Positions 4,905 through 15,694 of a DNA stretch of 64,000 nt are shown one piece after another. Numbering within the stretch: position 1 is the stretch's first letter; each line of letters begins with the position of its first letter. This stretch comes from Verrucomicrobium sp. (lineage in GTDB: Bacteria > Verrucomicrobiota > Verrucomicrobiia > Methylacidiphilales > GAS474). Where the stretch lies: the NCBI GenBank assembly GCA_028283855.1, contig JAPWJX010000004.1, positions 97,394 through 161,393 of the forward strand, written 5' to 3'. Position numbers and translations under genes: made by a program. The notes under the pieces are model-generated. The model saw only the letters and a list, made by a program, of their open reading frames with translations. It searched no databases and had not been told where the DNA came from.

Positions 4905-7094
4905 ATGAAACAGGTCCTTTTTATTTGTACCGGCAACATCTGCCGGAGCCCGATGGCCGAGGGGCTCTTCCGGGACCTGGTGAAGGGGCGCAAGGACATC
5001 CAGGTGGGCTCGGCCGGGATCGGCGCCATCTCCGGCCAGCCGCCCAGCCTCCACTCCGTCGAGGTGATGGAGGAGCTGGGCATCGACATCAGCCGCATCC
5101 GCAGCCGCCCGATCAACGCGGACATGGTCCGCAAGTCCGACTTCATCTTTTGCATGACCTACGGGCACCTCGACTCGATGCTCATGCTCTTCCCGCAGGC
5201 GGCGGACAAGATCTACCTGGTGCGGGAGTTCGAGCCCGGCCTGCCCGTCATCGCCCGCGAAGTGCCCGACCCCATCGGCTGCCCGCGCGACGTCTACCGC
5301 CACGCGCGGGACCAGATCGCCGGGGCGCTTCCCTCCCTCCTCGACTTCGTCCTCCACGCCTCCGCCGGGCCGGAGGAGGCCGTCCCCGGCCGCAAGGTCT
5401 TCCTGGCCGCCGATCATGACGGCGTGGCCCTCAAGGAATCCCTGCGGGACTGGTTCCGCCGCCGGGAAATTTCCGTGGAGGACTGCGGCGCCTTTTCCGG
5501 CGAGGTGGGCGACTACCGCGACTACGCGGGCCGCGTCGCCCGCGCCGTGGCGGAGGGGGACGCCCTCTGCGGCGTCCTCATCTGTGATTCCGGCCTGGGG
5601 CTGAGCATCGCCGCGCACAAGGTGCCCGTCCCCGGGGCCCGCGCCGCCCTCATCGGCGATCCCGCCGCCGCCCGCGCCAGCCGCCGGGACCACGACGCCA
5701 ACATCCTTTGCCTGGCCGCGCGCGGCACCAAGCCGCAGCGGGCCATCGAAATCCTGGAAGCCTGGTTTGAAGCCGGGTTTGCCGCCAACCTCCCACCCCA
5801 ACCCCCGAAGACGATTCAGAAAATGGACTCCCTCTCCCCCGCAAAGAACCACCCGCAGCCGCCCTCCCTCCAGCAGGCCGATCCCCAGATCGCCTCCCTC
5901 ATCGCCAAGGAGGCCGTCCGCCAAGGGGAGAACATCGAGCTGATCGCCTCGGAAAACTTCACCAGCCGCGCCGTCATGGAGGCGCAGGGCTCCTGCCTGA
6001 CCAACAAGTACGCGGAGGGCTACCCCGGCCGCCGCTGGTACGGCGGCTGCGAATACGTCGACGAGATCGAGCAGCTGGCCATCGACCGTGCCAAGCAGCT
6101 CTTCGGCGCGGAATACGTCAACGTCCAGCCCCACTCCGGCTCCCAGACGAACATGGCCGTCTACTTCGCCTTCCTGAAACCCGGGGACACCATCCTGACC
6201 ATGGACCTCTCCCACGGCGGGCACCTGACCCACGGCCACAAGATGAACTTCTCCGGCCGCTTCTACAACGTGGTCCATTACGGCGTGACGGAGAAGACGG
6301 AGACGGTCGACTACGACCACCTGGAAAAGCTGGCCCAGGAACACCGCCCCCGGATGATCACCGCCGGGGCCTCCGCCTACTCCCGCGTCATCGACTTCGC
6401 GCGGCTGGGGAAGATCGCCCAGTCCGTCGGCGCGCTGCTCCTGGTCGACATGGCCCACATCGCCGGCCTCGTCGCGGCGGGCGTCCATCCCTCCCCCGTC
6501 CCGCACGCCGACTTCGTCACCACCACCACCCACAAGACCCTGCGCGGCCCGCGCGGCGGCATCATCCTGGCCAAGGAAAAGTACGGCAAGGAACTCGACT
6601 CCCAGGTCTTCCCCGGCATCCAGGGCGGCCCGCTGGTCCACGTCATCGCCGCCAAGGCCGTCTGCCTGGGCGAGGCCCTGCGGCCCGAGTTCAAGGAATA
6701 CCAGAAACAGGTCGTCCAGAACGCCAAGGCCCTGTGCGAGGGGATGAAGAAGAACGGCTACCGCATCGTCTCCGGCACCACGGAGAACCACCTGATGCTC
6801 GTCGACCTCCGCCCGCACGACCTGACCGGCAAGGACGCGCAGGAAGCCCTGGACCGCGCGGGCATCACCATCAACAAGAACGCCATCCCCTTCGACACCG
6901 TTTCCCCCTTCAAGGCCGGCGGCATCCGCCTGGGCACCCCCGCCGTCACCACGCGCGGCATGAAGGCGGACGAGATGTTCGACATCGCCGACCTGATCGA
7001 CGAGGCGCTCAAGCACCGCGGCCAGCCGGAAAAGCTCGAGGCGATCCGCGTGCAGGTGCGGGACCTCACCGCCCGCTTCCCGCTCCCTTATTAA
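4905..7094 (+). CDS. glyA: YwlE-like low-Mr phosphatase - ribose-5-phosphate isomerase B - serine hydroxymethyltransferase fusion
   Basis: One uninterrupted frame of 729 codons encodes three enzymes. Residues 1-150 are a low-molecular-weight phosphatase: P-loop CTGNICRSP with Cys8 and Arg14, and general acid Asp122 in VPDPIG. Residues 161-305 are RpiB/LacB-type isomerase, with Cys227 in [15 protein letters not shown] and the SRRDHDAN segment. Residues 307-729 are GlyA, which makes glycine and 5,10-methylene-THF from serine; the PLP lysine is Lys544 in [15 protein letters not shown] Pro-rich linker joins RpiB to GlyA, where Met307 (ATG at 5823) matches a normal GlyA start. No stop lies between the domains, so either a true fusion or internal initiation is possible. 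The domain order mirrors Bacillus ywlE-ywlF-(ywlG)-glyA. Ile12 occupies the position where YwlE has Thr11, a residue tied to phosphoarginine versus phosphotyrosine preference. Confidence 0.93.
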
Positions 7095-8062: not shown

Positions 8063-8602
8063 ATGCAAAAGATCCTCTTCGTCGACACGGGCAACAGCGG
8101 CCGGTCCCCCATGGCGGAAGCCCTTTTTCGCCAGCAGCTGGGGAACCGCCTGGATATGGAGGTCTCCTCCGCCGGGACCGCGGTGACCGACGAGAAGGCC
8201 TTCCCGCACGCCGTCACCGTGATGCAGGAGCGCGGCGTCGACCTCTCCGGCCACCGTCCCCGCCAGGTCACGGCGAAGATCCTGAAGGAGAGCGACCTGG
8301 TCTTCTGCATGACCGAGGGGCACCGCGATTCCCTCAGCCACTATTTCCCGGACGAAGCGCACAAGCTCCGCCTGCTCGGGGAGGCGGTTCCCGGCCTGAA
8401 GGCGGAGGCCATGGACGTCAAGGACCCCCATTTCGGTTCCGTCGAGGAATACCGCGCCACCCGCAACGTCCTGCGCGACGCCATGCCCCACGTGGAAGCC
8501 GCCGCCGACAAGGCCGGCCTCTACGCCTCCCTGGCCAACGCCGAGTGGATCCGCATGGCGAAGGATTCCCTGCGGGAGATCCTGCGCGACCAGGTCAAAT
8601 AG
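8063..8602 (+). CDS. Low-Mr phosphatase homologue lacking the catalytic cysteine (pseudophosphatase)
   Basis: A 179-residue relative of LMW phosphatases and YwlE, paralogous to the N-terminal domain of the fusion 3 kb upstream. The P-loop reads VDTGNSGRSP: Asp8 stands where the nucleophilic Cys must be and Gly13 replaces the second Cys. Arg14, Ser15 and the general acid Asp121 (VKDPHFGSVEEY) are kept, as is the FCMTEGH block. About 30 extra residues follow the domain. Without the thiol it cannot form the phospho-cysteine intermediate, so I infer a phosphate-binding or regulatory role rather than catalysis. The frame is intact, codon use is like its neighbours, and an 86-bp gap precedes the ATG. 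Confidence 0.85.
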   Translation: MQKILFVDTGNSGRSPMAEALFRQQLGNRLDMEVSSAGTAVTDEKAFPHAVTVMQERGVDLSGHRPRQVTAKILKESDLVFCMTEGHRDSLSHYFPDEAHKLRLLGEAVPGLKAEAMDVKDPHFGSVEEYRATRNVLRDAMPHVEAAADKAGLYASLANAEWIRMAKDSLREILRDQVK

Positions 8603-8611
8603 GCGGCGCGC

Positions 8612-9577
8612 CTAGGATTGCGCCGCCGGCGCCTGGTTGGGCGCCTCGATGCTTTGCTGCAGCTCCGCCTTGCGGGCGTAGAGGTCCCGGCTGAAGTTTT
8701 GCAGCCGCAGGGTGATCTCATGGCACTTCTGCACGGAATCGGCCAAGCCCGCCACGTGCGCCCGCAGCGGCGACTCGGCCGGGCAGTCAGCCTCCAGGAG
8801 ATAGGCGAAGCCGAGGATCGAGGTGACCTGGTTGGAGAAATCGTGCGCCATCTTTCGCAGCTCGGTGGCGGCCGCCACGTCGTCCGCCAGGGGAAAGAAC
8901 TGCGGCAGGCCGATTTCCCAGTCCGCCCGGCGGGTGATCTTCATGTTGACCCCGTCATTCTGCACCAGGGCCACTGGCCTCCCCAGGAACTCGACGGCGG
9001 CGGTGTCGTCCGTCACGGATTGCCCGGCCGCCTTCACCGCCGCGTAGGCTTCGGAGAGGAGGGAGCGGGAGAAAATCTGCGGCGTCTGCACCGCCCAGAC
9101 CTTGGCGCGGTCCAGCGTGCGCGAGACGGTGCCGTCCGGGTTTGCCTCCTTGAGAGTGTCGATGGAGGGGTGGCCGCAGACGGCGGCCCCGTGCTCCCGG
9201 GCGGCGGCGAAGACCTTGTCGATCAAGGGCGCGTCCAGGAAGGGGCGCGCGCCGTCCTGGATCATGACGTAGTCCAGGCCGGGGTCGACGGCGGCCAGCC
9301 CCGCGGCGACCGAGTCCTGCCGCTCCGCCCCTCCGGGAATGACGCGGATGGGGACGGCGGGATCGGCGGGCAGCAGGGCGGCGACCGCCTCCTCCTTCCC
9401 GGCCGAGGTGACCACGACGACCTGCCGCACCTGCGGGGAAGCCAGGATCCGCTCCAGGGTGATCTGGAAGACCGTCTTCCCGAGAACGGGAGTGAAGAGC
9501 TTGTCGAATCCGAGGCGGCGGCTGGAACCGGCGGCGGCCAGCACCACGCCCAGGCCGTGACCTTGCGCGGGGGCCAT
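8612..9577 (-). CDS. ispD: IspD cytidylyltransferase with C-terminal DHp-like histidine domain
   Basis: Residues 1-225 are 2-C-methyl-D-erythritol 4-phosphate cytidylyltransferase (MEP pathway of isoprenoid synthesis). Visible motifs are the nucleotide-binding VVLAAAGSSRRLG (11-23), the QDGARPF block (107-113), WAVQTPQ (161-167) and a C-terminal NMKITRRAD. IspD normally ends around residue 230. Here residues 232-305 form an extra helical domain with ELRKMAHDFSNQVTSILG, matching the H-box of HDFNN-type histidine kinases, with His245 as the candidate phospho-acceptor. A second helix (residues 272-300) follows, then a short tail. There is no HATPase domain. The gene starts 2 bp after mlaD and is the last of the mlaE-mlaF-mlaD-ispD run. 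Confidence 0.9.
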   Translation of the reverse strand: MAPAQGHGLGVVLAAAGSSRRLGFDKLFTPVLGKTVFQITLERILASPQVRQVVVVTSAGKEEAVAALLPADPAVPIRVIPGGAERQDSVAAGLAAVDPGLDYVMIQDGARPFLDAPLIDKVFAAAREHGAAVCGHPSIDTLKEANPDGTVSRTLDRAKVWAVQTPQIFSRSLLSEAYAAVKAAGQSVTDDTAAVEFLGRPVALVQNDGVNMKITRRADWEIGLPQFFPLADDVAAATELRKMAHDFSNQVTSILGFAYLLEADCPAESPLRAHVAGLADSVQKCHEITLRLQNFSRDLYARKAELQQSIEAPNQAPAAQS

Positions 9578-12016: not shown

Positions 12017-14542
12017 TTAGGAAGGATTCTCCGCCGCCGTGGCGGCGGGCGCGTCGGGGGCGCCGCCGGTGGGCGTGAAGGTGAGGGCGTCGTCGGTGAC
12101 GTCGACCTCGATGGTCTGGGACTCCTTGAGGGTCCCCTTGAGGAGTTCTTCCGCCAGGGGGTTTTCCAGGTAGCGCTCCACGGCGCGGCGCAGCGGCCGG
12201 GCGCCGTATTGCGGGTCGTAGCCCTTCTCGATGAGGAAGTCGGTGGCGGCCTGGCTGAGCTTGAGCGTGAGCTGGCGGCTTTCCAGGCGGCGGCCCACCT
12301 TGGCCACCTCCAGGTCGACGATCTGCGTCATGTCCGACTTGTTGAGCGAGCGGAAGACGATGATGTCGTCCAGGCGGTTGAGGAACTCCGGCTTGAAGGT
12401 CTTCTTCACCTGCTCGAGCATCCGCTCCTTCATCTGCTCGTAGGTGGCCTCGTCCTTGTTGGAGGTGAAGCCGAGCGACCCCTTGTTGAAGCCGGTGTCG
12501 GCCCCGACGTTGGAGGTCATGAGGATGATGGTGTTCCGGAAGTCGATCTTGCGGCCCAGGCTGTCGGTGACGATGCCGTCTTCCAGGATCTGCAGGAGCA
12601 CGTTCCAGACGTCCGGGTGGCCCTTCTCGATCTCGTCGAAGAGGACGACGCTGTAGGGGCGGCGGCGGACTTTCTCCGTGAGCTGGCCGCCCTCCTCGTA
12701 GCCGACGTAGCCCGGAGGCGAGCCGATGAGGCGGGAGACGTTGAACTTCTCCATGTACTCGGACATGTCGATCTGGATGAGCGATTCGGAGCTGCCGAAG
12801 ACGTGCTCCGCCAGGGTCTTGGCCAGCATCGTCTTGCCGACGCCGGTGGGGCCCAGGAAGATGAAGGAGCCGATCGGCCGCTTCGGGTCCTTGAGGTCGG
12901 CGCGGGAGCGCTGCAGGGCGCGGCCCAGGGCCACGATCGCCTCGTCCTGGCCGATGACCTTGCCCTTGAGCACGTCGGCGACCTGGAGGAGCTTCTCGCG
13001 GTCCTTGGCGGTGACGCGGGAGATGGGCACGCCGGTCCACTTGGAGACGATGTGCATGATGTCGTCCTCGGTCACGCTGACCTCGGCCTCGTCACGCTTC
13101 GTGCGCCAGTTGTGGAGGATGGCCTCCAGCTTGTCCTTGGCGTTCTTCTCCTCGTCGCGGAGGGAGGCGGCTTTCTCGAAGTCCTGGGCCTTGATGCAGG
13201 CGTCCTTGCGGTTCTTGATCTCCGCCAGCTCGCCCTCGATGTCCTTCACGTCGGGCGGGCGCATGGTGGCGGCGATGCGCGCGCGGGCGCCCGCCTCGTC
13301 CATGATGTCGATCGCCTTGTCCGGCAGGAAGCGGCCGGTCAGGTAGCGGTCGGAGAGCTTGGCCGCGGCGACGATGGCCTCGTCGGTGAACTTGGCCTTG
13401 TGGTGCGCCTCGTACTTCACCTTCAGGCCCTGGAGGATCTGGATGGTGTCCTCCACGCTGGGGGCCTCCACGGTGACGGTCTGGAAGCGGCGCTCCAGGG
13501 CGGAGTCCTTTTCGATGTATTTGCGGTACTCGGCCAGGGTGGTGGCGCCGATGCACTGCAGCTCGCCGCGGGAGAGGGCGGGCTTGATGATGTTGGAGGC
13601 GTCCATCGCCCCTTCCGCCGAGCCCGCGCCCACGATGGTGTGCAGCTCGTCGATGAAGAGGATGATGTTCTTGGCCTTGCGGATCTCTTCCATCACGGCC
13701 TTGATGCGCTCCTCGAACTGGCCGCGATACTTGGTGCCGGCGACCATGAGGGCGAGGTCGAGGGTGATGACTTTCTTGTCCCGCAGGAGTTCCGGCACGT
13801 TGCCGGCGGCGATTTCCTGGGCCAGGCCTTCGACGATGGCGGTCTTGCCGACGCCGGCCTCGCCGATGAGGACGGGGTTGTTCTTCGTGCGGCGGCACAG
13901 GACCTGGATGACGCGCTCGATCTCGTTGGAGCGGCCGATGACGGGGTCGAGCTCGCCCTTGCGGGCGACTTCGGTCAGGTCGCGGCCGAAGGACTTGAGC
14001 GCGGGGGTCTTGACCTCCTTGCGGGAGCTGGGGCCGGTGGGCTCGCCGCCGCCGGCGGTCTCGCCCGACTCTTCCTCCCCGCCCGATTCCCCGGCGGAGA
14101 AGTTGGGGTCGAGTTCCTTTAAGATTTCGTTGCGGGCGCGCTCGAGGTCGATCTCCAGGCTCTTGAGCACGCGGGCGGCGACGCCCTCGCCCTCGCGCAG
14201 GAGGCCCAGGAGGACGTGCTCCGTGCCGACGTAGCTGTGGTTGAGCGCCTTGGCTTCCTTACCGGCCAGGGCCAGCACCTTCTTCACGCGGGGCGTGTAG
14301 GGGATGTTGCCGGAGACTTTGGATTCCGGGCCGGTGCCGACCTGCTTTTCGACTTCCGAGCGGACGGTCTCCAGGTCGACGCCCATCTTCTGCAGGACGT
14401 TGACGGCGACGCCCTGGCCCAGCTTGATGAGGCCCAGGAGCAGGTGCTCCGTGCCGACGTAGTTGTGGTTGAAGCGGTCAGCCTCCTTGCGGGCCAAGGA
14501 GAGGACCTGCTGGGCGCGGGGGGTGAAGTTGTTCATGGACAT
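12017..14542 (-). CDS. clpC: ATP-dependent Clp protease unfoldase ClpC
   Basis: An 841-residue Hsp100 unfoldase that feeds substrates to ClpP. It has two Clp N-repeats (residues 1-150, each with the HNYVGTEH or NHSYVGTEH motif). AAA domain 1 has Walker A GEAGVGKT, and a UVR-like middle segment follows ([19 protein letters not shown]). AAA domain 2 has Walker A GPTGVGKT, and GYVGYEEGG and a ClpB-D2 C-terminus follow. The N-repeats are the region that reads phosphoarginine tags in Bacillus ClpC. The start is 3 bp after the mcsB stop, so kinase and unfoldase are cotranscribed. Neither ctsR nor mcsA is present beside it, unlike in Firmicutes. Confidence 0.97.
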
Positions 14543-14545
14543 AAA

Positions 14546-15694
14546 TTAAGAGGTGGACTCGGGGGGGGTGATGCCGCCGGCTCCGTTTAAGGTATGGGTG
14601 TCGGGCGAGGGAAAGTCACGCAGATGTTCGCGGATGAAGTCGGCGCGCAGGCCGTCCCGTTCCTCGGTGGTGAGCTTGCGGTCGTAGTCCATCTGCAGGT
14701 GGGCGGGCTGGGTGCGGATGAGGCACTCGTCGATCTCGAAGCGGCAGGAATCGGGGAAGATTCCCAGGTCGACGCCCAGGCGCATGAGGGAAAGGAGGTT
14801 GAGGGCTTCCTTGGAGGAGATGGCGTAGCCGTAGCGCAGGACGCCGTAGGCGCGGCCGACCTGGTCGGCCACGGCGCGGCCCTTTTCCTGCACCAGCTTG
14901 GTGCGGGCGTTGTCCTCGTGCTCGATGATCTGGTGGATCACCTTTTGCAGGCGCTCGATGATGGCGGACTCGCCCTCGCCCAGGGTCATCTGGTTGGAGA
15001 CCTGGAAGAGGTTGCCCAGGGCCTCGGTGCCCTCGCCGTAGAGGCCGCGCACGGCCAGGCCGATGCGGTTGACCGCCTTGATGATCTGGCCGATCTGCTC
15101 GGAAAGGACCAGGGCGGGCAGGTGGAGCATGACGGAGGCGCGCATGCCGGTGCCGACGTTGGTCGGGCAGGCCGTCAGGTAGCCGATCTGCGGGGAGAAG
15201 GCGAAGTCGAGCTTGGCGTCCAGCTCGCTGTCGATCTTGTCGGCGGCCTTCCAGAGGTTCTTGAGCTGGAGGCCGGCGCGGAAGGTCTGGATGCGGAGGT
15301 GGTCCTCCTCGTTGATCATGACGGAGAGGGTGCGGGGCTTGTTCACGGCCAGGCCGCTGCCGGCGTTCTTCGCGGCGTGCTCCCGGCTGATGAGGTGCTG
15401 TTCGACGAGGACCTGCTTTTCCAGCGGGGTGAAGTGGTCCATCGAGTCGCTCAGGACGGCGTGGCCCATCTCCGGCAGGGAGAGGACGGCGGGCAGGATG
15501 GAGCCGAGGATTTTTTCCCGCTCGGCCTTTTTGGCCCAGCCGGGGAAGGGGTGGCTGTTGAGATTCCGGGCCAGCCGGACGCGGGTGCAGATGACCACGC
15601 GGTTGCTCCCGTTATCACCGCGGAGCCACTCGCTGCTCGACTTGAGCAAATTGGCGATCTTCACCTTAAAAACAGTAGGGCTTTTGGGGAGCAA
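14546..15694 (-). CDS. mcsB: Protein arginine kinase McsB
   Basis: A 382-residue guanido-kinase-fold protein that phosphorylates arginines to mark proteins for ClpC-ClpP in Firmicutes. Visible are CTRVRLARN (ATP-side arginines), the MINEEDHLRIQ loop with catalytic acidic residues, and CPTNVGTGMRAS. The C-terminal RDGLRA (residues 346-351) matches the RDxxRA phosphoarginine-binding allosteric motif of active McsB. McsB is usually about 350-360 residues; the extra length is a short N-terminal and a C-terminal tail. No mcsA activator gene lies adjacent. The gene is followed immediately by clpC and lies 111 bp downstream of lexA. Confidence 0.95.
   Translation of the reverse strand: MLPKSPTVFKVKIANLLKSSSEWLRGDNGSNRVVICTRVRLARNLNSHPFPGWAKKAEREKILGSILPAVLSLPEMGHAVLSDSMDHFTPLEKQVLVEQHLISREHAAKNAGSGLAVNKPRTLSVMINEEDHLRIQTFRAGLQLKNLWKAADKIDSELDAKLDFAFSPQIGYLTACPTNVGTGMRASVMLHLPALVLSEQIGQIIKAVNRIGLAVRGLYGEGTEALGNLFQVSNQMTLGEGESAIIERLQKVIHQIIEHEDNARTKLVQEKGRAVADQVGRAYGVLRYGYAISSKEALNLLSLMRLGVDLGIFPDSCRFEIDECLIRTQPAHLQMDYDRKLTTEERDGLRADFIREHLRDFPSPDTHTLNGAGGITPPESTS

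Follow-up and report, generated by a model that had tools for sequence, protein, structure and literature searches.

We found that the 64,000-nucleotide stretch of Verrucomicrobium sp. DNA analysed here (the window) encodes a 729-residue protein which is, at a probability of roughly 0.6, an SHMT (GlyA) carrying a tethered low-molecular-weight phosphatase (LMWP) on a folded RpiB isomerase spacer that is predicted to be non-catalytic. The three-domain fusion itself has been known since 2008, because Hou et al. (2008) described the M. infernorum protein Minf_1669 as combining an SHMT domain with homologues of LMW phosphatase and RpiB, which they interpreted as linking the serine and pentose phosphate pathways (PMC2474590). 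Minf_1669 resembles the window protein in combining these three domains in one verrucomicrobial protein, a likeness drawn from its published description; the passages of that paper devoted to Minf_1669 are silent on loss of RpiB residues, isomerase redundancy and chains without RpiB. Among open-licence papers only this one was found to describe the fusion, and a decayed RpiB domain was mentioned in none that we found. What is new here is the state of the middle RpiB domain.

An earlier note on this DNA, made from the letters alone, had proposed that an LMW phosphatase, RpiB and GlyA share a single frame, and this is borne out: the three encoded Pfam domains (LMWPc; LacAB_rpiB, PF02502, 116 bits; SHMT) all score over cut-off, and Cys8, Ile12, Arg14, Asp122, Cys227, Met307 and Lys544 all lie where the note had placed them (Table 1). 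The phosphatase domain has the CX5R P-loop and catalytic Asp of its family, and the C-terminal part is a whole SHMT domain with its PLP lysine, scoring 645 bits against a curated NCBIfam cut-off of 335. It is like GlyA in this respect and unlike plain GlyA in bearing phosphatase and RpiB-like arms at its N-terminus. A fold search with the whole model listed SHMT chains only, and the window's genome (2.56 Mb, 9 contigs) gave no second SHMT match when searched with the whole protein. The three-domain layout, which the note had suggested looking for in related genomes, recurs in 47 of the 62 genomes of the window's order as one stop-free frame covering nearly the whole query; in the remaining 15, SHMT matches were partial, split or absent, in some cases on fragmented contigs. 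Because the unbroken frame recurs in this way, we ruled out a sequencing error or chance frame. Each of the best 120 among 1439 database relatives combines LMWPc, RpiB and SHMT by precomputed Pfam assignment, and the relatives listed include the verrucomicrobial names Verrucomicrobium sp. GAS474, Methylacidimicrobium and LW23.

Table 1. Features of the fused gene (window positions).
Feature	Position	Strand	Basis
729-aa open frame: LMW phosphatase + RpiB + SHMT (GlyA)	4905..7094	+	ORF and Pfam; only SHMT match found in genome
LMW phosphatase domain, residues 4-145	4914..5339	+	Pfam PF01451, 104 bits
P-loop CTGNICR: Cys8, Ile12 (PX5), Arg14	4926..4946	+	sequence
Asp122, general acid position	5268..5270	+	sequence
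Linker between phosphatase and RpiB	5340..5396	+	pLDDT <50 at residues 154-162
RpiB domain, residues 165-293, active site degenerate	5397..5783	+	signature DHCSHDHL (final letter is residue 296) vs DHC[ST]NHNR
Cys227, retained, at E. coli Cys66 position	5583..5585	+	signature reading
Asp262, at E. coli His99 / L. donovani His102 position	5688..5690	+	alignments
Linker replacing RpiB tail GGRHERR	5784..5867	+	no Arg in residues 294-321; pLDDT <50 at residues 293-316
Met307 codon, inside RpiB-SHMT linker	5823-5825	+	sequence
SHMT domain, residues 322-698	5868..6998	+	Pfam, 571 bits
PLP lysine Lys544 in TTHKTLRG	6534-6536	+	sequence; invariant in 44 aligned

The note had also read an RpiB domain with Cys227. 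The cysteine is indeed present, but the degenerate active site around it had been missed. We scored eight RpiB positions (Asp, His, Cys, Ser/Thr, Asn, His, Asn, Arg), of which four are altered in the window, including the His99 position (to Asp) and the tail Arg (to Leu); DYR stands in place of DYP, and the GGRH tail is gone, with no Arg in residues 294-321, a stretch where relatives have GGRHERR. PF02502 homology and the fold persist, and the domain folded alone still models as RpiB. In an NCBIfam comparison that covered the window protein, the domain falls under the PRK05571 and TIGR01120 cut-offs and over that of TIGR00689. In L. donovani RpiB, C69S and H102N abolish all activity, opening of the sugar ring is ascribed tentatively to the His that is His102 there and His99 in E. 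coli, and docking has two Arg anchoring the phosphate (PMC4783025). Unlike T. maritima, C. thermocellum and E. coli RpiB, the window domain has lost the His99 position and the tail arginines, and to judge from these residues it is probably a folded but inactive isomerase. Weak activity is possible, since Asp170, His171 and Cys227 are kept.

We then compared the eight positions across genomes with RpiB beside SHMT, excluding rows in which more than two positions were missing. Outside the window's order, at most one position was changed in 144/145 genomes; 143 showed no departure at the positions read, one (G448) misses a single position and one (G117) is degenerate. Inside the order, at least two positions were changed in 32 of 37 genomes, window included. 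By family, the domain was degenerate in f1 (2/2), f4 (1/1), f5 (2/3), f7 (13/13), f8 (6/6) and f9 (8/8), and intact in f3 (3 genomes) and f6 (1 genome). In one genome, assembled as a single contig (G026, C1:687607-689807, locus L055), the fused gene falls into two overlapping frames that part within the degenerate RpiB; the break may be genuine or a sequencing error.

The middle domain also diverges faster than its neighbours in several of these families. Between the window's genome and G006, amino acid identity was 74% for LMWP, 43% for RpiB and 80% for SHMT, with dN/dS values of 0.36, 0.66 and 0.31, respectively (our own Nei-Gojobori script). Relative to SHMT, RpiB and LMWP divergence was 2.87 vs 1.32 in f1, 2.35 vs 1.06 in f7 and 2.22 vs 1.15 in f8; the LMWP values for f7 and f8 compare with 1.4 to 3.3 in 16 intact families. 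The RpiB/LMWP divergence ratio was 0.75-1.3 in 12 of these 16, with RpiB faster in f94 (2.0), f99 (2.2) and f23 (1.5) and slower in f41, and degenerate f9 showed no RpiB excess over LMWP (1.07). In close f7 pairs, dN/dS was 0.06-0.21 for RpiB and 0.02-0.12 for LMWP, and for degenerate RpiB the close pairs within f7 and f9 spanned 0.03-0.21, with 0.48 in f5. On these dN/dS values, the degenerate RpiB is relaxed and yet not drifting freely.

Decay of the fused RpiB coincides with the presence of a second ribose-5-phosphate isomerase (Rpi). Of 179 genomes sampled from the class, 172 gave an RpiB match (PF02502) and 8 an RpiA match (PF06026), and we tabulated redundancy for the 122 in which the locus was read, leaving out the other 57; assemblies are not all complete, and a count of genomes with no other Rpi found may miss some. 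Every genome with a degenerate fused RpiB carried another Rpi (25 present, 0 absent). With an intact RpiB, another Rpi was present in 28/87 and none was found in 59/87, the latter including two genomes (G158, G205) with RpiB as a separate frame adjoining SHMT. Where the SHMT gene came without RpiB, another Rpi was present in nine and none was found in one (G334). The difference between degenerate and intact gave a Fisher p of 1.5e-10, uncorrected for ancestry; within the order alone, a second Rpi was present in 25/25 degenerate vs 1/4 intact genomes (p 0.001). Five f9 genomes have no second RpiB, yet RpiA was present in 5/5. Calling a domain degenerate at cut-offs of 1, 2, 3 and 4 changed positions left 1, 0, 0 and 0 degenerate genomes without another Rpi, the one being G448. 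In a pair test on the tree, the sign test was not significant (nine pairs on starred branches, of which about 0.7 differed in both traits), and the test is weak because it holds too few independent contrasts. Redundancy does not force decay, as the 28/87 intact genomes with another Rpi demonstrate.

In some relatives the middle domain is absent altogether. Twenty genomes (nine, nine later confirmed, and G011 and G013) have an LMWP-SHMT chain in one frame with no RpiB, and all 20 carry another Rpi. One genus (g6, in f5) contains two of these states: RpiB is degenerate in G009 and G010, and by eye in G012, while congeners G011 and G013 have frames of 610 and 611 aa with LMWP and SHMT only, whose tail resembles the RpiB end of G012. 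LMWP and SHMT are separate frames in G503 and G488, each with another Rpi, and G334 has a plain SHMT with no RpiB or RpiA found. One locus (G501) ended at a contig end, and L111 was left out because G270 was already represented by another locus.

These observations suggest a sequence of events in which the fused isomerase would once have been active in the chain, would have become dispensable when another ribose-5-phosphate isomerase was present in the cell, and would then have decayed or been lost, with the phosphatase still attached to SHMT. That phosphatase and SHMT are functionally coupled is something we infer. The least certain steps are that the phosphatase may act on phospho-marks of SHMT or of its one-carbon neighbours, and that the SHMT dimer with its pseudo-RpiB may serve as a platform for it. 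A more specific version, which we consider quite unlikely, holds that the fused isomerase, after a second one had become available, was either retained by selection as a pseudoenzyme hinge, structural or sugar-phosphate-sensing, or deleted, with the phosphatase controlling one-carbon metabolism in cis.

The phosphatase arm is probably active, a prediction from its catalytic residues: Cys8, Arg14 and Asp122 are kept in 196/196 genomes. It belongs to the same family as the arginine phosphatases YwlE and PtpB, sharing CX5R and the DP motif, and differs from them in being fused and in having Ile rather than Thr at PX5. Thr at this position steers YwlE to phosphoarginine (pArg) and Ile toward pTyr, and in PtpB the T11I exchange raised pNPP hydrolysis (PMC8001253); by that rule the window's phosphatase arm, with Ile12, would not be of YwlE type. 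Across the 196 genomes the residue was I in 73, T in 61, V in 50, S in 9, L in 2 and A in 1, and the note's judgement that the preference of the domain is ambiguous holds. The best PDB matches of the phosphatase domain were 4egs, 4pic, 1zgg and 4kk3, the last three being YwlE. The top match, 4egs (102 bits), is a phosphatase chain deposited as RpiB and, unlike the window protein, without SHMT; to judge from that name, it may derive from an LMWP-RpiB fusion. When proteins of 165-525 aa were sought elsewhere as two-domain LMWP-RpiB fusions, many proved to be partial copies of the three-domain fusion.

The window also encodes McsB next to a ClpC-like ATPase (12017-15694, minus strand), a pair familiar from Firmicutes. 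McsB scores 415 bits with NF002194 (cut-off 385) and stays below the thresholds of four further McsB models; the ATPase has Clp_N, AAA and UVR matches and two GTEH motifs, a motif that belongs to the pArg-docking sites in B. subtilis ClpC. Kinase and ATPase of the McsB-ClpC system are thus both in this genome, and an McsB match was found in 358/387 genomes of the phylum (E up to 1e-10, some weak). The residue at PX5 was tried as a marker of McsB and rejected: it does not track McsB, being T in 54, I in 32, V in 14 and S in 6 of 106 McsB-positive genomes.

The window's genome has two other LMW phosphatase matches. One, 1 kb downstream of the fusion, is a second YwlE-like protein of 179 aa (8063-8602, plus strand), sharing 42% identity with the phosphatase domain of the fusion and having Asp for the catalytic Cys (DTGNSGRS); this exchange is unique to it among the 38 of 50 database matches read, itself included, and the protein may be a pseudophosphatase. 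The other, on contig C7, consists of two adjacent frames that resemble arsenate reductases by eye. Two side observations are an IspD with about 100 C-terminal residues beyond the Pfam domain (8612-9577, minus strand), and P0157 (276 aa), another fusion of the LMW phosphatase family, with Sua5/YrdC and LMW phosphatase domains (precomputed Pfam).

It is possible, though less likely than not, that the phosphatase arm serves instead as the eraser of McsB phosphoarginine marks, the role of YwlE, and that fusion to SHMT merely secures its expression. The McsB-ClpC pair in the window, the frequency of McsB in the phylum, the YwlE structures among the best matches and the lost catalytic Cys in the YwlE-like neighbour are all consistent with such a role. 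Arguing against it are Ile at PX5, the very exchange that shifts YwlE from pArg toward pTyr, the occurrence of I or V there in 37/37 genomes of the order, and the failure of PX5 to follow McsB.

The fusion might also be read as an operon relic, its parts joined for co-expression only and without mutual influence. The order of the domains presumably equals the Bacillus gene order ywlE-ywlF(rpiB)-(ywlG)-glyA; the 16 kb of a Bacillales locus (L005) contained a different LMW phosphatase, with neither an RpiB nor an SHMT match. Relatives showed five arrangements: all three domains in a single frame, RpiB-SHMT preceded by its own LMWP gene, LMWP-SHMT lacking RpiB, RpiB beside SHMT, and LMWP beside plain SHMT. 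Since loci were chosen from the best listed matches to the query, these counts are not frequencies. LMWP and RpiB-SHMT frames parted by one stop were common, in a sample noted to favour split pairs because joined matches rank higher. The four architecture labels require 14 changes on a quick tree built from 104 SHMT rows, and a stop codon separating LMWP from RpiB-SHMT distinguishes the sister rows G228 (C15, L127; split) and G436 (C21, L128; fused); fusion state can therefore flip easily, as a mere relic would allow. SHMT itself was found in 371/387 genomes of the phylum (E up to 1e-60), singly in 365 and twice in six. We nevertheless regard the relic as rather unlikely, given that phosphatase and SHMT share a frame in the 20 genomes without RpiB (they are separate in G334, G503 and G488) and that in f7 and f8 LMWP and SHMT are conserved to a similar degree.

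That all three domains are active in the window protein, with the pentose phosphate and serine/one-carbon pathways coupled through it as suggested for Minf_1669 (Hou et al., 2008; PMC2474590), is improbable. The window does keep Cys227 and the Asp-His pair, but half of its signature positions are changed, its tail is without Arg, and a stand-alone RpiB with a GGRHARR tail lies on contig C3 of the same genome. Outside the window's order, where the signature is kept in 144/145 genomes and no other Rpi was found in 59/87 intact class genomes, fully active fusions are likely on these residue and gene counts.

Finally, the note's suggestion that Met307 could start a separate GlyA fared poorly, and it is very improbable that GlyA is additionally made on its own from there: an ATG is present and the column is M in 21/52 fused genes, but it is otherwise mostly I, L or V and corresponds to the hydrophobic position ending the RpiB tail GGRHERRVxK, which makes Met307 an unlikely start. 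A Shine-Dalgarno core preceded this column in 4/24 start-codon rows (at six other internal Met columns, 0 to 32 rows), in a test that is weak because the core precedes even the first-Met column in merely 6/38.

Among living relatives, one domain of the fusion thus exists in three states, intact, degenerate and absent, and its decay accompanies the presence of a second isomerase. Where it is gone, a phosphatase-SHMT chain is left, in a phylum where McsB is common. Our preferred reading, of an SHMT with a tethered phosphatase on a probably non-catalytic isomerase spacer, predicts that genomes in which no other Rpi was found would depend on the fused RpiB, and that the others would not.
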